Below are positions 2,642 to 10,648 of a stretch of 64,000 bases of DNA, piece after piece. The position numbers and the translations under genes were made by a program. Each line of letters begins with the position of its first letter. The first letter of the stretch is position 1. The stretch spans positions 20,399 to 84,398 of the forward strand of contig JABDKX010000076.1 in the NCBI GenBank assembly GCA_013001975.1. The letters run 5' to 3'. The notes beneath the pieces were generated by a model. The model was not told the origin of the DNA, did no database searches, and was given only the letters and a program-made list of their open reading frames with translations. Source of the DNA: Saprospiraceae bacterium. Lineage in GTDB: Bacteria > Bacteroidota > Bacteroidia > Chitinophagales > Saprospiraceae.

Positions 2642-3343
2642 ATGAACAAAACGAAAGCCAAATTACAAGATTTAGCATATAAATTACTTGATCCTTTTGT
2701 CAAATTGCTAATAAAACTGGGCGTTACGCCTAATATGATTACCTTTTTAGGCTTTCTTATTACTGTACTCTCTACTGCATTATTAATCTATGGCGCTGAA
2801 ATTGGAGATCGCAGTGATCATAGTTTTTTAGGCTATGCCGGAATAATAATTCTTTTAGCTGGTGCCATGGATATGGTTGATGGCCGTTTGGCAAGACTAA
2901 ATAATCAGGCACACCCATTTGGAGCACTTTATGATAGCGTTGTTGACAGATACAGCGAATTGGTGATGTTTTTCGGCTTTTGTTATTATACAGTCACTCA
3001 AAACTACTTATTTACTTCATTATTTTGCTTTCTTGCCATGATCGGATCAATTATGGTAAGTTACACCAGAGCAAGAGCCGAAGGTTTAGGTGTCAATGCA
3101 AGCGTCGGTTTGATGCAAAGGCCAGAAAGAATCGTTTTAGTTTCTGTTGCCAGCATTTTAACTAGCATAGTATCAAGTCTAATTGGAGGTGATTTTAAAA
3201 TCGAAGTTCCTTGGTTATCACAGCCAGCCTTTGAAACCATCTCTATCTTCAGTTGGTCTATTTTTTTCCTTGCCATTTCAGCAAATATTACAGCTTTAAG
3301 GAGACTCACATTTGCAAAAAAAGAACTATTCAAACAAGATTAA
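2642..3343 (+). CDS. CDP-alcohol phosphatidyltransferase family protein, candidate phosphatidylinositol-phosphate synthase
   Basis: Exact CDP-OH-P motif D-x2-DG-x2-AR-x8-G-x3-D-x3-D in DMVDGRLARLNNQAHPFGALYDSVVD; ORF listed from TTG at 2633, ATG at 2642 preferred. Confidence 0.9.
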   Translation: MNKTKAKLQDLAYKLLDPFVKLLIKLGVTPNMITFLGFLITVLSTALLIYGAEIGDRSDHSFLGYAGIIILLAGAMDMVDGRLARLNNQAHPFGALYDSVVDRYSELVMFFGFCYYTVTQNYLFTSLFCFLAMIGSIMVSYTRARAEGLGVNASVGLMQRPERIVLVSVASILTSIVSSLIGGDFKIEVPWLSQPAFETISIFSWSIFFLAISANITALRRLTFAKKELFKQD

Positions 3344-3486
3344 AATTAAGTTCTTTTCCAATTCAAATAGATTCTATCCCAATTAGATGTTATATTATGA
3401 CGTTTGTCATAAAATAATGCGTTCAATATATAGCACTTAAATTCAAGTCACTATATTTGATAATAATTTATCCTTGCCAATAAACT

Positions 3487-4002
3487 ATGTTTAAAAAACT
3501 AGATAAATCCCAGTTTAAAGTAATAGGAGAAAAAGGTCTTCCTGAACATTACCCTATACCCAAAAATATAGCTGGTTTATTATTTTATATTCAAAGAAAT
3601 TTAAACAAAAATACCGTTGTATATGCTATTAACAAGGATGCCAATGGTTATCTAAATGAAACCTTCCCCATGAAGGTGTTTTGGATTAAATATGACAACG
3701 GAGCTGTAATTGCTGAATTAAATAAGCTTCAAACAAAAGCTTTTGGCTACTCTTCAAAAAAAATTAATAATACAACATTTGAGTTTGTGATGGATTCACA
3801 CAAACAACTCCGTTTTTTCATCGCTCAGAATGAACAAAATGAGTTTAACATTATTACAAAGATAAATTCTAAAGATGCATTGCTATCTAACATTTATGTT
3901 TATGCCAATGAATTTGGATTGTTTCCAAAAGTTGAATACATAGAGTTATACGGCAACCATATAGACAGTGATCTGCCCAGTTATGAAAAAATTCTGATTT
4001 GA
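3487..4002 (+). CDS. Hypothetical protein, 171 aa, embedded in inositol-sphingolipid cluster
   Basis: Intact ORF, co-directional, 8 bp upstream of the PAP2 gene. Confidence 0.75.
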   Translation: MFKKLDKSQFKVIGEKGLPEHYPIPKNIAGLLFYIQRNLNKNTVVYAINKDANGYLNETFPMKVFWIKYDNGAVIAELNKLQTKAFGYSSKKINNTTFEFVMDSHKQLRFFIAQNEQNEFNIITKINSKDALLSNIYVYANEFGLFPKVEYIELYGNHIDSDLPSYEKILI

Positions 4003-4010
4003 CTTAACCT

Positions 4011-4949
4011 ATGACTGACTTAACGCAATTCGATAGACTCTCAAAACCATGGGTCAAATGGTTTATGATTTTATCCATCCTATATTGGTTATGGTTTGCA
4101 GTTGTCGTTGGCATAGATGATCTGAATATCTACTTCTATATAATGATTACCTTCTTTTTCTTCAACAGTGCGAGAACTAGGAAGTTACTGGTAGTATTTA
4201 GTCCCTTTTTCATTTACATGATACTCTACAGCTCCCTTAAGGTACTGCATAAGTTTAATGTTTTCACTATTCATATTGAAGATTTATACGAACTTGAAGT
4301 CAAATTATTTGGCATTTGGTATAATGGCAAAAAAGTACCTGTCAGTGAATATTTTGTTGAAAACCTCAACCCCTTTTTGGACTTTTATGCAGGTGCCAGC
4401 TATATCACTTGGGTCCCTTTTCCGATTTTGTTTGCCCTCATTCTGTTTTTTAGTAACAAACCAAAAATTGCGTTCAATTTTTGGGTATCATTCTTAATTG
4501 CCAACCTATTGGGATTTATCGGTTATATAACCTATCCTGCAGCTCCGCCATGGTACTATTTTGAGTATGGCAGTCAATTAATAGTTGATCTGAAAGGTAA
4601 TGCCGCTGGTTTGGCTCGATTTGATGATATTATCGGTATGCCTATTTATAAAAACATGTACAGTGAAGGCACCAATACTTTTGGCGCTATGCCCTCAATG
4701 CATGCTGCATTTCCATTGCTTTTAACCTATTTTTCTTTAAAATTTGGCAAAAAGTGGATAACAATAGTTGCAATCATCAGTATGGTAGGTATTTGGTTTG
4801 GAGCTGTTTATACTGCCCATCACTATATTATTGACATAATTTTTGGAATTCTATGTGGTATTCTTGCAATAATTATCACAGAATCCCTCATAAATCGTAA
4901 ATTTGCGGTTCGATGGTACGAATCAGCCATTGATTTTATAAGAAAATAG
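4011..4949 (+). CDS. PAP2 superfamily membrane protein, Aur1/inositol-phosphorylceramide-synthase-like
   Basis: Multi-TM protein with FGAMPSMHAAFP (C2) and AVYTAHHYIIDIIFG (C3, HHYxxD) typical of sphingolipid headgroup transferases. Confidence 0.8.
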   Translation: MTDLTQFDRLSKPWVKWFMILSILYWLWFAVVVGIDDLNIYFYIMITFFFFNSARTRKLLVVFSPFFIYMILYSSLKVLHKFNVFTIHIEDLYELEVKLFGIWYNGKKVPVSEYFVENLNPFLDFYAGASYITWVPFPILFALILFFSNKPKIAFNFWVSFLIANLLGFIGYITYPAAPPWYYFEYGSQLIVDLKGNAAGLARFDDIIGMPIYKNMYSEGTNTFGAMPSMHAAFPLLLTYFSLKFGKKWITIVAIISMVGIWFGAVYTAHHYIIDIIFGILCGILAIIITESLINRKFAVRWYESAIDFIRK

Positions 4950-6173
<1,224 letters not shown>

Positions 6174-6318
6174 TTTTTAGATTCCTAAAGAATCTTCTGT
6201 ATAAAATTAACTCATTTTATATTGGTGTCATTTTAGTGTTTATTCATTTTGGGGAACACGGCAATTATAAATGTGAGTACATTTAAAAGATAAATTCTAA
6301 GCCAATAAACAGTATAAT

Positions 6319-7449
6319 ATGAGTCTCGTCATTAGAGAAGCCAATTCAAATAAAGACATTAAAAAGTTTATTGATTTTGCTCATGATCTTCATGCGAATG
6401 ATAAAAACTATGTCCCCGAAATCTATGTAGCGCAAAGAGAATTTTTTGATAAAAAAAAATATCCTTTTTATGAATATGGTGAAGCACAATGCTTCCTAGC
6501 CTATGAAGATGATAAAATTGTTGGTCGCATAGCAGCTATTAAAAACAAGAGATATAATGACTATCACAATTCCAATATTGGTTTTTTTGGCTTTCTAGAA
6601 TTTATCGAATCGAAAGAAGTCGCTCAGGCATTATTAGAAAAAGCTGGAGAATGGTTGTCTGATGAAAATTATGATTACTTGATGGGACCTACCAACTTTA
6701 CGACCAACGAAACATCCGGTTTTTTAGTTGAAGGATTCGATACGCCACCTATGATTATGATGGCACACAACCCATCTTACTATGATGGCATCTTAAAAGA
6801 AATTGGCCTTAAAAAAGAAATGGACATGTTTGCATACATGATCTATTCTGAAAAAGCTTCAGACAAGTCAATCAAGCTTTCTCAAATGCTTGAAGAACGT
6901 TTAAAAAGGTCAAATATCACCATTCGAAATCTCAGCCTTAAAAACTTCAAAACTGAAGTAAAGAATATAAAGGAAGTGTATAATGAAGCTTGGGAGAATA
7001 ACTGGGGCTTCGTGCCATTTACAGATCGTGAATTTGATCACATTGCTTCTGGATTGAAAATGTTAGCAGATGAAAAGTTTGCTTATATCGCAGAAGATGA
7101 TGGCAAAATGATTGGCTTTTCAATATCTGTTCCCAATCTGAATGAAATCACAATTAACTTCAAAAAAGGTCGACTACTTCCATTTAATATTTTTAAAATC
7201 TTATTAAACAAGAAGAAGCTGAAGACCGTTAGAATCATGGCAACAGGAATCAAAGAAGCTTATCGAAGAAAAGGTATTGAAGCCATATTTTTTGCTAAGA
7301 ATATTCTTGAAGCCAGAAAAAGGAAATTAATTGGAGGTGAAGCTTCATGGATTCTTGAAAGCAATCAAGAAATGGTTGTTTCAGCTGAAAAATTAAATGG
7401 CATTAAATATAAAACCTACAGACTTTACAACTATCCACTTAAAGGTTAA
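6319..7449 (+). CDS. GNAT-like N-acyltransferase, candidate bacterial ceramide synthase
   Basis: 376-aa GNAT-like protein (MGPTNFTTNETSGFLVEGFDTPPMIMMAHNPSYY...); lies between SPT and an NAD-dependent epimerase. Confidence 0.7.
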   Translation: MSLVIREANSNKDIKKFIDFAHDLHANDKNYVPEIYVAQREFFDKKKYPFYEYGEAQCFLAYEDDKIVGRIAAIKNKRYNDYHNSNIGFFGFLEFIESKEVAQALLEKAGEWLSDENYDYLMGPTNFTTNETSGFLVEGFDTPPMIMMAHNPSYYDGILKEIGLKKEMDMFAYMIYSEKASDKSIKLSQMLEERLKRSNITIRNLSLKNFKTEVKNIKEVYNEAWENNWGFVPFTDREFDHIASGLKMLADEKFAYIAEDDGKMIGFSISVPNLNEITINFKKGRLLPFNIFKILLNKKKLKTVRIMATGIKEAYRRKGIEAIFFAKNILEARKRKLIGGEASWILESNQEMVVSAEKLNGIKYKTYRLYNYPLKG

Positions 7450-7461
7450 TTAGGATTCCCA

Positions 7462-8454
7462 ATGAGTAAAAAAGTTTTAATTACCGGTAGTAATGGTTTT
7501 TTAGGCAGCTTCATAGTTGAAGAAGCTTTAAAACAAAATTACCTTATACATGCAGGTGTTAGAAAATCAAGCAACCTCCAGTATTTAACTGATCCACGAA
7601 TCAACTTTCTTTACTACGACTTTGATAATGAAAATAACTTAAGAGAACAACTGAGATCTCACAGATTTGATTATATCATTTTAAATGCAGGCATTACAAA
7701 TGCTTTAAACCGCGAAACATACTTTAAAGTTAATTCAGGTTATACCAGAAAGTTCTGTAAGATATTGATTGAAGAAAATGTAATTCCTGAAAAACTTATA
7801 TTCATTAGCAGTTTGGCATCTTACGGTCCAGCTGAGAATCAAGCAAATCAAATTCTAGACGGACAATCTGTTCCTCATCCAGCTACTTGGTATGGTGAAT
7901 CAAAATTGCAAGCTGAGCAATTTATTCAATCTTATAACACCATACCCAGCATCATTTTCAGACCAACAGCTGTATTTGGACCTCGAGATACAGATATGGT
8001 AGCTGTTTATAAAACGATAAAAAGTGGTATTGAAGCGAAAATTGGCTTTGGAAATCAAGATCAATCTTTTATTTATGTAAAAGATCTGGCGCACTTAATC
8101 GTAAATTCACTTCAAGTAAAGGCCGTAAATAAAGGGTATTTTGTCTCAGATGGCAATATTTATCCGAGTAAACAATTATTTGATATACTAAAGAAAATCC
8201 TTTCCAAGAAAACAATTAAATTCACGATCCCAATTCCAGCCATGAAAGTTATAGCTGGAATAAGCGAACTCGTTGGAAAGGCCAGAGGGGTAACACCTTT
8301 GTTAAATAGAAATAAGGTAAAAGAATATTTTGCAAGGTCTTTTGCTGTAGATATTGATGACTTAAAAAAAGATTTTAACTTCGCACCAAAATATGACCTT
8401 GAGTCGGGTCTTCAAGAAACGATTGCTTGGTGTAAACAACAAAAACTACTATAG
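7462..8454 (+). CDS. NAD-dependent epimerase/dehydratase family protein, candidate ceramide/3-ketosphinganine reductase (CerR-like)
   Basis: Rossmann motif ITGSNGFLGSF, YxxxK in WYGESKLQAE; neighbourhood with SPT and acyltransferase. Confidence 0.78.
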   Translation: MSKKVLITGSNGFLGSFIVEEALKQNYLIHAGVRKSSNLQYLTDPRINFLYYDFDNENNLREQLRSHRFDYIILNAGITNALNRETYFKVNSGYTRKFCKILIEENVIPEKLIFISSLASYGPAENQANQILDGQSVPHPATWYGESKLQAEQFIQSYNTIPSIIFRPTAVFGPRDTDMVAVYKTIKSGIEAKIGFGNQDQSFIYVKDLAHLIVNSLQVKAVNKGYFVSDGNIYPSKQLFDILKKILSKKTIKFTIPIPAMKVIAGISELVGKARGVTPLLNRNKVKEYFARSFAVDIDDLKKDFNFAPKYDLESGLQETIAWCKQQKLL

Positions 8455-8459
8455 ATAAT

Positions 8460-9785
8460 ATGGCTAAGAAAAGCACAAAAAACGTATTAGCTGCTCCAGC
8501 AAAAGGAAAACTTGGTATTCTAATGCCAGGAATGGGTGCAGTAGCAACAACTTTCATGGCAGGAGTTTTAGCCGTGAATAAAAATTTAGCTCAACCAATT
8601 GGTTCTTTATCTCAAATGGGAAGAATCAGAATTGGCAAAAGGACTAATAAGAATAACCAACCACTTATGAAGGACGTAGTGCCTATTCAAGATTTAAAGA
8701 AAGTTGCTTTCGGAGGTTGGGATATTTTTAGAGACAATATGTATGAAGCAGCAGTACATGCTGATGTACTAGACATCAACCTTCTTAATAAGCTTAAAGC
8801 ACCATTATCTAAGATAAAGCCAATGAAAGCTGTTTTTGATAAGCAATATGTCAAAAAATTAGATGGCCCTCACGTCAAAAAGGGGAAAACTAAGATGGAT
8901 TTGGCCAAGGCAGTTATGGCTGATATCAAAAAGTTTAAAAAAGAAAACAAGTGTGACAGATTGGTTATGGTTTGGTGTGGATCCACTGAGATTTACATTG
9001 AAGAATCTGCTGTACACAAAACAATTGCCGCATTCGAAAAAGGCTTGGAAAAGAACAGCAAATTAATTGCACCAAGTATGATTTATGCATATGCAGCTAT
9101 TAAAATGGGAATTCCATATGCTAACGGTGCGCCTAACCTTTCTTGCGATGTTCCTGCACTTGTTGATCTTGCTAAAGAAACACAAACACCTATTGCAGGT
9201 AAAGATTTCAAAACAGGACAAACTTTAATGAAAACCATTCTTGCGCCAGGTTTAAAAGCCAGAGCACTTAAAATTGATGGTTGGTTTTCAACAAACATAT
9301 TAGGTAACAGAGATGGAGAAGTACTTGACGATCCAGATAACTTTAAAACTAAAGAAGTTTCTAAATTAGGTGTATTGGAACAAATACTTGAGCCTAAGTT
9401 ATATCCAGAACTTTATAAAGATTTCTATCATAAAGTGAGAATCAATTATTACCCGCCACGTGGTGATAACAAAGAAGGTTGGGATAACATCGATATCGCT
9501 GGTTGGTTAAATTATCCGATGCAAATCAAAATCGATTTCTTATGTAGAGATTCTATTTTAGCTGCACCGATCGTATTAGACCTAGCCTTATTTTTAGATC
9601 TGGCTAAAAGATCAAATATGTCAGGAATTCAAGAATGGTTATCTTTCTACTTGAAATCACCACAGGCACCTGCAGGTCGCTACCCTATTCACGACATATT
9701 TAAGCAATTACATAAATTAGAAAATACAATTCGCCACATTGGTGATGAGGATTTAATCACGCATTTGGGATTAGATTACGAATAA
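8460..9785 (+). CDS. ino1: Inositol-3-phosphate synthase (myo-inositol-1-phosphate synthase)
   Basis: MIPS family: GILMPGMGAVATTFMAGV, GGWDIFRDNMYEAA, IPYANGAPNLSCDVPAL, GQTLMKTILAPGLKAR, STNILGNRDG. Confidence 0.93.
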   Translation: MAKKSTKNVLAAPAKGKLGILMPGMGAVATTFMAGVLAVNKNLAQPIGSLSQMGRIRIGKRTNKNNQPLMKDVVPIQDLKKVAFGGWDIFRDNMYEAAVHADVLDINLLNKLKAPLSKIKPMKAVFDKQYVKKLDGPHVKKGKTKMDLAKAVMADIKKFKKENKCDRLVMVWCGSTEIYIEESAVHKTIAAFEKGLEKNSKLIAPSMIYAYAAIKMGIPYANGAPNLSCDVPALVDLAKETQTPIAGKDFKTGQTLMKTILAPGLKARALKIDGWFSTNILGNRDGEVLDDPDNFKTKEVSKLGVLEQILEPKLYPELYKDFYHKVRINYYPPRGDNKEGWDNIDIAGWLNYPMQIKIDFLCRDSILAAPIVLDLALFLDLAKRSNMSGIQEWLSFYLKSPQAPAGRYPIHDIFKQLHKLENTIRHIGDEDLITHLGLDYE

Positions 9786-10247
9786 ATGTGGCTTCATAAA
9801 GCTGTAACAACCGTTTTCGGTTTAGGATTTGCTCCTTTTGCACCAGGTACTTTTGGCGCACTTGGAGCAATTCTTTTTTATTATATTTTATTAATGTCCG
9901 GTATCGACTTGTCTTTACCTATTCTTATTTTTCTCATCGTTTCCATTACTCTACTAGGAGTTTACTCAACCAAAAAGGTAATTCCCGAATGGGGAGATGA
10001 TCCTTCAAAAGTAGTAGTTGATGAATTCGTAGGCATCTTGGTCACAATGATTTTGATTCCTGTTACACACACCAATCTTTGGCTTGGTTTTATCTTATTT
10101 CGTTTTTTTGATATCTTAAAACCCTTAGGTATCAGGTGGGTTGATAAAAACCTAAAAGATGCTTGGGGTGTCATGCTTGATGATGTATTAGCAGGCGTCT
10201 ATGCATGTATCTCGCTACACGCTTTGAATTACTTTTTTAATTTTTAA
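9786..10247 (+). CDS. pgpA: Phosphatidylglycerophosphatase A family protein, candidate phosphatidylinositol-phosphate phosphatase
   Basis: PgpA motifs GLGFAPFAPGTFGALGA, VVDEFVGILV, FRFFDILKPLGIRWVDK; directly abuts ino1. Confidence 0.85.
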   Translation: MWLHKAVTTVFGLGFAPFAPGTFGALGAILFYYILLMSGIDLSLPILIFLIVSITLLGVYSTKKVIPEWGDDPSKVVVDEFVGILVTMILIPVTHTNLWLGFILFRFFDILKPLGIRWVDKNLKDAWGVMLDDVLAGVYACISLHALNYFFNF

Positions 10248-10648
10248 TTCAGTTAGCTATCAGCAATGTACCTTTCATAAAATCCTTTTTCAGATCTCAA
10301 ATTGGGGCCATTACTGCTACAGGAGTTGACATTTCTAGTCTGTTCATCCTAACTGAATATCTTAAAATCTATTACGTCATTTCTGCAGGCATTGCAAGCG
10401 GTCTCGGAGCCATCGTCAGTTTTACTATTTTAAGATATTGGGCTTTCGAAAAAAGAGATAAACCCATCATATCACAAATTTCAAAATACATCATTGTAAG
10501 TATTTTAATTCTGCTGCTAAACATGGGAGGTATTTATATTTTTACTGACATAGCAGGCTTCAATTATCTTATCGCTAAAATTATCATTGCTGTTTTAATT
10601 GGTGTTTTTATAAGCTTTCCATTATTCAGATATTGGGTGTATAAATAA
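10247..10648 (+). CDS. GtrA family membrane protein, apparently with non-canonical start (ATT at 10247 or later ATC/ATA)
   Basis: Open frame from the stop at 10238 to TAA at 10646-10648: IQLAISNVPFIKSFFRSQIGAITATGVDISSLFILTEYLKIYYVISAGIASGLGAIVSFTILRYWAFEKRDKPIISQISKYIIVSILILLLNMGGIYIFTDIAGFNYLIAKIIIAVLIGVFISFPLFRYWVYK; GtrA-like 4-TM pattern; absent from the supplied ORF track. Confidence 0.65.
   Translation: MQLAISNVPFIKSFFRSQIGAITATGVDISSLFILTEYLKIYYVISAGIASGLGAIVSFTILRYWAFEKRDKPIISQISKYIIVSILILLLNMGGIYIFTDIAGFNYLIAKIIIAVLIGVFISFPLFRYWVYK

Follow-up and report, generated by a model that had tools for sequence, protein, structure and literature searches.

The closest described relative of the locus reported here is the system of Bacteroides thetaiotaomicron, where the inositol-lipid genes form the operon BT1522-1526, the serine palmitoyltransferase (SPT) gene BT0870 lies elsewhere, and the two halves of the pathway have been treated separately; deletions prove the inositol-lipid set in this species, with knock-outs of BT1522-1526 relatives abolishing phosphatidylinositol (PI) and/or inositol phosphorylceramide (IPC) (PMC9246714, PMC8791184). 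Here we analyzed a stretch of 64,000 nucleotides (the window) from contig JABDKX010000076.1 in the 4.2-Mb draft genome of a Saprospiraceae bacterium, in which nine genes of the same direction at positions 2642-10648 can be read with considerable confidence as a complete set for the synthesis of inositol-phosphoryl dihydroceramide, the bacterial IPC. Since the enzymes are all of kinds already described, with a chemistry worked out in Bacteroides, the novelty is limited to the joint locus and to a protein of the DUF4833 family: both halves stand in one recurring block, together with this unstudied protein, which in other species is fused to the phosphatidylinositol-phosphate (PIP) synthase (PIPS), while the product of the block, very probably a yeast-like inositol sphingolipid, is predicted from its genes.

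Like the window, the BT1522-1526 operon clusters myo-inositol-phosphate synthase (MIPS), PIPS, a PgpA-type PIP phosphatase, a GtrA protein and an AUR1-like IPC synthase, but it is without SPT, ceramide synthase, reductase and DUF4833, and its gene order is different. The ceramide set of the Caulobacter type, namely SPT, bCerS, CerR, acyl carrier protein (ACP) and acyl-ACP/AMP ligase, shares with the window an SPT, a homologous full-length GNAT protein and an extended short-chain dehydrogenase/reductase (SDR), as compared through a Klebsiella locus described below; the window in contrast has no dedicated ACP or acyl-AMP ligase, joins these genes to those of inositol lipids, and has an SPT of the CFB type, and the CerR of Caulobacter is periplasmic and reduces 3-keto-ceramide. 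The Phocaeicola vulgatus-type cluster (NTP transferase, CDP-alcohol phosphatidyltransferase, HAD) is likewise an inositol-lipid locus of Bacteroidota, for which a CDP-inositol route is proposed, whereas the window would follow the PIP route. The fungal IPC pathway has the same last step, performed by the homologous PAP2 enzyme AUR1, while its ceramide synthase and reductase are unrelated to those of the window and its PI synthase uses free inositol. The genes of the block are as follows.

2642-3343, plus strand: predicted PIPS, a BT1523-like CDP-alcohol phosphatidyltransferase of 233 aa (PF01066, PIPSynBT1523 model)
3487-4002, plus strand: DUF4833 protein of 171 aa (PF16117, E=1.4e-32)
4011-4949, plus strand: predicted PAP2/AUR1-type phosphoinositol dihydroceramide (IPC) synthase of 312 aa (PhinosDhcerSyn, yeast AUR1)
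4965-6173, plus strand: SPT of 402 aa (SerpalmtaseCFB, PDB 3a2b)
6319-7449, plus strand: tandem-GNAT N-acyltransferase of 376 aa, predicted bCerS-type ceramide synthase (homology to a Klebsiella-locus GNAT)
7462-8454, plus strand: extended SDR of 330 aa, predicted CerR-type 3-keto (ceramide/sphinganine) reductase (GSNGFLG and YGESK motifs)
8460-9785, plus strand: MIPS of 441 aa (PF07994/PF01658, PDB 7nwr)
9786-10247, plus strand: PgpA-family phosphatase of 153 aa, predicted BT1525-type phosphatase of PIP-diacylglycerol (PIP-DAG) (PF04608, E=2e-43)
10259-10648, plus strand: BT1524-type GtrA-like membrane protein (PF04138, E=2e-18), with ATC as apparent start

An earlier note on this DNA had described nine co-directional genes with mostly very short gaps, and frames, coordinates and Pfam domains (in order CDP-OH_P_transf, DUF4833, PAP2_3, Aminotran_1_2 of the alpha-oxoamine synthase (AOS) kind, GNAT, Epimerase, MIPS, PgpA and GtrA) bear this out. 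The gaps are 143 bp between PIPS and DUF4833, 8 bp from there to the PAP2 gene, 15 bp from PAP2 to SPT, 145 bp from SPT to GNAT, 12 bp from GNAT to the epimerase, 5 bp from the epimerase to MIPS, 0 bp from MIPS to PgpA, and about 11 bp between the PgpA stop and gtrA. The functions which the note had given to the PIPS, PAP2/Aur1, SPT, GNAT, epimerase, MIPS and PgpA genes each passed an independent test, and the route that it had drawn, from glucose-6-phosphate, CDP-diacylglycerol (CDP-DAG), serine and an acyl donor to inositol-phosphoryl-(dihydro)ceramide, is supported as a gene-level reading by profile, PDB, reciprocal-hit, residue and tree tests. In the pathway that we propose, PIPS would act with CDP-DAG to give PIP-DAG, which the PgpA-type phosphatase would convert to PI-DAG; SPT would condense serine with an acyl thioester, and the tandem GNAT would perform the N-acylation and the CerR-type SDR the reduction of the 3-keto group, probably in this or the reverse order, to yield dihydroceramide; finally the AUR1-type PAP2 enzyme would transfer phosphoinositol from PI-DAG onto dihydroceramide. 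GtrA may be an accessory, perhaps presenting PI to the IPC synthase, and DUF4833 may be a dedicated partner of the PIP synthase.

For the inositol half, the catalytic motif of the 2642 enzyme, reported before as exact, is DMVDGRLAR...GALYDSVVD and indeed fits DxxDGxxAR...GxxxDxxxD. A kinship with PgsA or PssA had been set beforehand as the outcome that speaks against the reading; among the NCBIfam models the best is PIPSynBT1523 with 294 bits (cut-off 350), followed by other inositol-phosphate synthases with 144 and 114 bits, as against 36 for PgsA and 23 for PssA. With PgsA-like and PssA-like genes encoded separately elsewhere in the genome, these scores rule out PgsA and PssA as identities of the enzyme. 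Its best PDB matches are AF2299/PIPS fusions and PIPS, with which it shares a SYxxARAE...RxER segment. The best PDB match of MIPS is 7nwr (E=9e-160), which we take to be the structure of BT_1526. MIPS, PIPS, PgpA-type phosphatase and AUR1-like synthase, the gene set of the BT1522-1526 type, are all together in the block. The PgpA-family enzyme might instead be a housekeeping phosphatase of phosphatidylglycerophosphate, as it is the sole PF04608 protein in the genome and as one study failed to obtain a BT1525 deletion (PMC8791184), but in another the BT1525 deletion led to accumulation of PIP-DAG (PMC9246714). Moreover the gene tracks the IPC synthase: among 61 relatives PgpA is found in 16, of which 15 also carry IPC synthase and have their PgpA gene at the locus, and most of the remaining relatives are without PgpA. 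We therefore regard the housekeeping role as unlikely and keep the PIP-DAG phosphatase as the predicted function.

For the ceramide half, the SPT passes the NCBIfam equivalog SerpalmtaseCFB (685 bits, above the cut-off of 640) and matches 3a2b, the crystallised SPT of Sphingobacterium, at E=6e-157. The earlier note had tied its reading to this AOS being SPT and not KBL/BioF; in our tree, which has long branches at BioF, Klebsiella SPT and one further genome (G592), the enzyme groups with 3a2b at 98/95 support, apart from KBL/BioF, and E. coli Kbl groups with the other AOS of the genome. The KBL/BioF identity is thus ruled out by the tree, KBL being that other AOS. Sulfonolipids occur in Bacteroidota, and SulA has the SPT fold with a diagnostic lysine (PMC9304779), so that the block could be thought of as a sulfonolipid (capnine) pathway, in which the AOS would be a SulA or CAT cysteate acyltransferase and the GNAT would make N-acyl-capnine. 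This is extremely improbable: the position diagnostic of SulA (30 residues after the Schiff-base lysine, Lys281 in SulA) is Ala270 in the window SPT, as in 3a2b; the PDB match to SPT reaches 526 bits as against 263 for CAT and 262 for the SulA-like entry 7u7h; the SPT equivalog cut-off is passed; and a sulfonolipid pathway would not account for the IPC synthase or for the inositol genes. By the diagnostic residue and the profile, SulA/cysteate identity is ruled out, and the enzyme is here taken as SPT. In genome G592 (locus L126, 16581-17840), an AOS with lysine at the SulA-diagnostic position lies near an inositol-lipid locus and is possibly a sulfonolipid synthase.

As a yardstick for the GNAT and epimerase genes we used a plasmid locus of Klebsiella michiganensis (L111), which holds a curated SPT (613 bits, above a cut-off of 500), ACP, NAD-epimerase, fatty acyl-AMP ligase (FAAL) and GNAT, presumably the same five gene kinds as in the Caulobacter ceramide set. 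With its counterpart there the window GNAT shares 34% identity over 372 aa, and it is the sole match in the genome, and the window epimerase, with 27% identity over 336 aa, is the best match in the genome, in agreement with the previous proposal that the two are ceramide genes. The structure prediction of the GNAT protein gives a tandem-GNAT fold, which says nothing of the substrate. Adjacency of GNAT and SPT is widespread in the phylum, where the enzyme beside GNAT is SPT-like but more distant, and in several families the epimerase adjoins the SPT-GNAT pair. On these grounds GNAT is predicted to be a bCerS-type ceramide synthase and the SDR a CerR-type 3-keto reductase; for the order of acylation and reduction, both models are held in the literature (PMC11087976, PMC9278070). 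In sphingolipid-producing Bacteroidota, SPT, bCerS and CerR are said not to lie close together (PMC11334938), a statement which fails for the families studied here because SPT, GNAT and epimerase are neighbours in these loci. This pairing of GNAT with the more distant SPT-like AOS, of 45-51% identity, is seen in many further genomes from the phylum (L088-L110). Plasmid records of Parabacteroides and Phocaeicola carry a closer SPT (60-64%), and in the annotated Parabacteroides plasmid record neither GNAT nor epimerase was found beside it.

The two halves would be bridged by the PAP2 protein, for which an Aur1-type HHYxxD had been noticed; it carries SMH and HHYIID motifs, and its PDB matches at E<=1 are yeast AUR1 only (9vj3, E=4e-17). 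Its only NCBIfam match is PhinosDhcerSyn, the PI-dihydroceramide synthase, at 249 bits and E=5e-74 under a cut-off of 480. Several points weigh against our assignment of the block to IPC. Neither PIPS nor IPC synthase reaches its curated cut-off, which is based on Bacteroides, hence substrate drift is possible; the epimerase, with its low identity to the Klebsiella yardstick, makes a weaker case than GNAT; and the gtrA frame, open from 10241, has no in-frame ATG, GTG or TTG before 10523. Furthermore, four loci of another genus in the same family (g183; L118, L121, L122 and L130) have IPC synthase with SPT-GNAT-epimerase and no inositol genes beside them; these genomes may encode the inositol genes at another site or use a different head group. 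Such neighbourhoods, as well as the modest PAP2 score, would fit an enzyme that takes another phospho-head-group donor, for example phosphatidylethanolamine, phosphatidylglycerol or a mannose lipid, so that the product would not be inositol-phosphoceramide; with MIPS, PIPS and PgpA phosphatase sharing the block, and with AUR1 alone matched in the PDB, we consider this very unlikely, and IPC is retained as the predicted product.

The earlier note had further proposed that both half-pathways are joined in one locus and had suggested checking the conservation of the neighbourhood. Of 13 congeneric genomes, 12 keep the block order, DUF4833 included; in the remaining one (G007) the block is cut by a contig end, and in L035, one of the 12, the contig stops short of gtrA. 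The order of the window, again with DUF4833, is also kept in another genus (L044), where several proteins are just 31-54% identical. Chance is excluded, because the nine genes recur in the same order in the 12 congeneric genomes and in other genera at such low identity. Under a strict test, which asks that a span of some 20 kb contain SPT, GNAT, MIPS, PIPS and IPC synthase, 26 of 59 IPC-synthase loci pass (12 from the window's genus and 14 from other genera), a fraction which is no prevalence since the loci were picked for having IPC synthase. Ceramide and inositol-lipid genes thus stand together in at least 14 loci outside the genus. Two permuted architectures are seen: type A has the window order, and type B (family f21 and relatives) runs SPT-GNAT-epimerase-MIPS-PgpA-GtrA-DUF5686/CarboxypepD_reg-PIPS-DUF4833-fatty-acid hydroxylase-IPC synthase. 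One might think of two unrelated lipid operons adjacent by chance, one for PI-DAG and one for ceramides with other head groups, and in fact B. thetaiotaomicron has the halves apart (BT0870 versus BT1522-1526), as do some relatives (L008, L047). However, an AUR1-type enzyme bridging both substrates sits between the halves, the genus keeps one gene order, and other families have joint loci with permuted order, all of which makes the chance adjacency most improbable and speaks for one joint pathway. No description of a joint ceramide and inositol-lipid locus was found in the open-licence PMC literature. The type B hydroxylase (PF04116; L071 7730-8365, L068 8135-8761), which the window locus does not have, is a candidate for hydroxylation of the sphingolipid.

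The 171-aa protein that had been left as an unknown belongs to DUF4833. In a set of 396 genomes from the order, 79 have a strong IPC-synthase hit and 317 do not; DUF4833 occurs in 57 of the former and 11 of the latter (Fisher p ~3e-39, with no correction for relatedness). It is found in 39 of the 59 IPC-synthase loci, 50 of which hold PIPS, and adjoins PIPS in most. Moreover, in nine loci (L128, L131, L132, L134, L136, L140, L142, L145 and L149) a single frame of 423-450 aa joins CDP-OH_P_transf to a C-terminal DUF4833, and a hydrophobic segment lies between the two domains in the L128 and L140 sequences. The functional link of DUF4833 with the PIP synthase is thus well supported by genomic context; it goes beyond the earlier note, as does the recurrence of the arrangement across the order. 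Unfused DUF4833 in other genera can carry a signal-peptide-like leader (L071, L135), and no hydrophobic N-terminus is seen in the copy of the window or in its genus. The structure predicted from four sequences has low confidence (pLDDT 65) and gave no significant match to a known fold, so that nothing beyond "mostly beta" is taken from it, and the way in which DUF4833 acts is a guess. No paper on DUF4833 was found in the open-licence PMC literature. Taking these together, we lean slightly towards a reading in which DUF4833 is an unrecognised dedicated component of inositol-lipid synthesis, a mostly beta partner of PIPS (fused in some species), probably exposed on the inner-membrane face away from the cytoplasm where its leader is hydrophobic, that helps in accepting the inositol lipid or passing it on, and in which the joint PI and ceramide locus represents a channelled pathway, widespread beyond gut Bacteroides. 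Loci of family f25 (L069, L072 and similar ones) have neither MIPS nor SPT and place DUF4833 beside GtrA and a CDP-alcohol phosphatidyltransferase of a different kind, which suggests another head-group pathway. At L065 (G248), a P. vulgatus-type cluster (NTP transferase, CDP-alcohol phosphatidyltransferase, HAD, PfkB) is joined to SPT-GNAT-epimerase and DUF4833.

As to gtrA, the GtrA-like domain that had been noticed stands, and what is missing is a canonical start codon. ATC is found near the aligned start in the window and in two relatives (G004, L032/L005; G008, L033/L006), and in the rest of the genus the start is mostly ATG, TTG or GTG. The substitutions are strongly synonymous (dN 0.20, dS 2.6 against G013), which means purifying selection. 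Either the frame is functional and starts in an unusual way, or these genomes have an oddity of assembly or annotation in common. Of the two B. thetaiotaomicron studies (PMC9246714, PMC8791184), one found less IPC and more PI after deletion of the homologous BT1524, and in the other the mutant looked wild type by thin-layer chromatography. Upstream of the block, a divergent KAS III (FabH-like) gene lies at 1446-2507 on the minus strand; the congeneric loci that extend far enough have it ahead of PIPS as well, L044 does not, and the pathway is proposed without need for it. A scan for promoters and terminators gave a signal no better than that of shuffled sequence.

Inositol sphingolipids have been studied mainly in gut Bacteroides, where the half-pathways lie apart. 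A single nine-gene block, which recurs in other families of Bacteroidota, would permit a one-step rebuilding of bacterial IPC synthesis in E. coli. It offers candidates, strong on genomic grounds, for two Bacteroidota enzymes, ceramide synthase and reductase, about whose identity and sequence of action there is debate, and it names DUF4833 as a new protein family for study in inositol-lipid synthesis.

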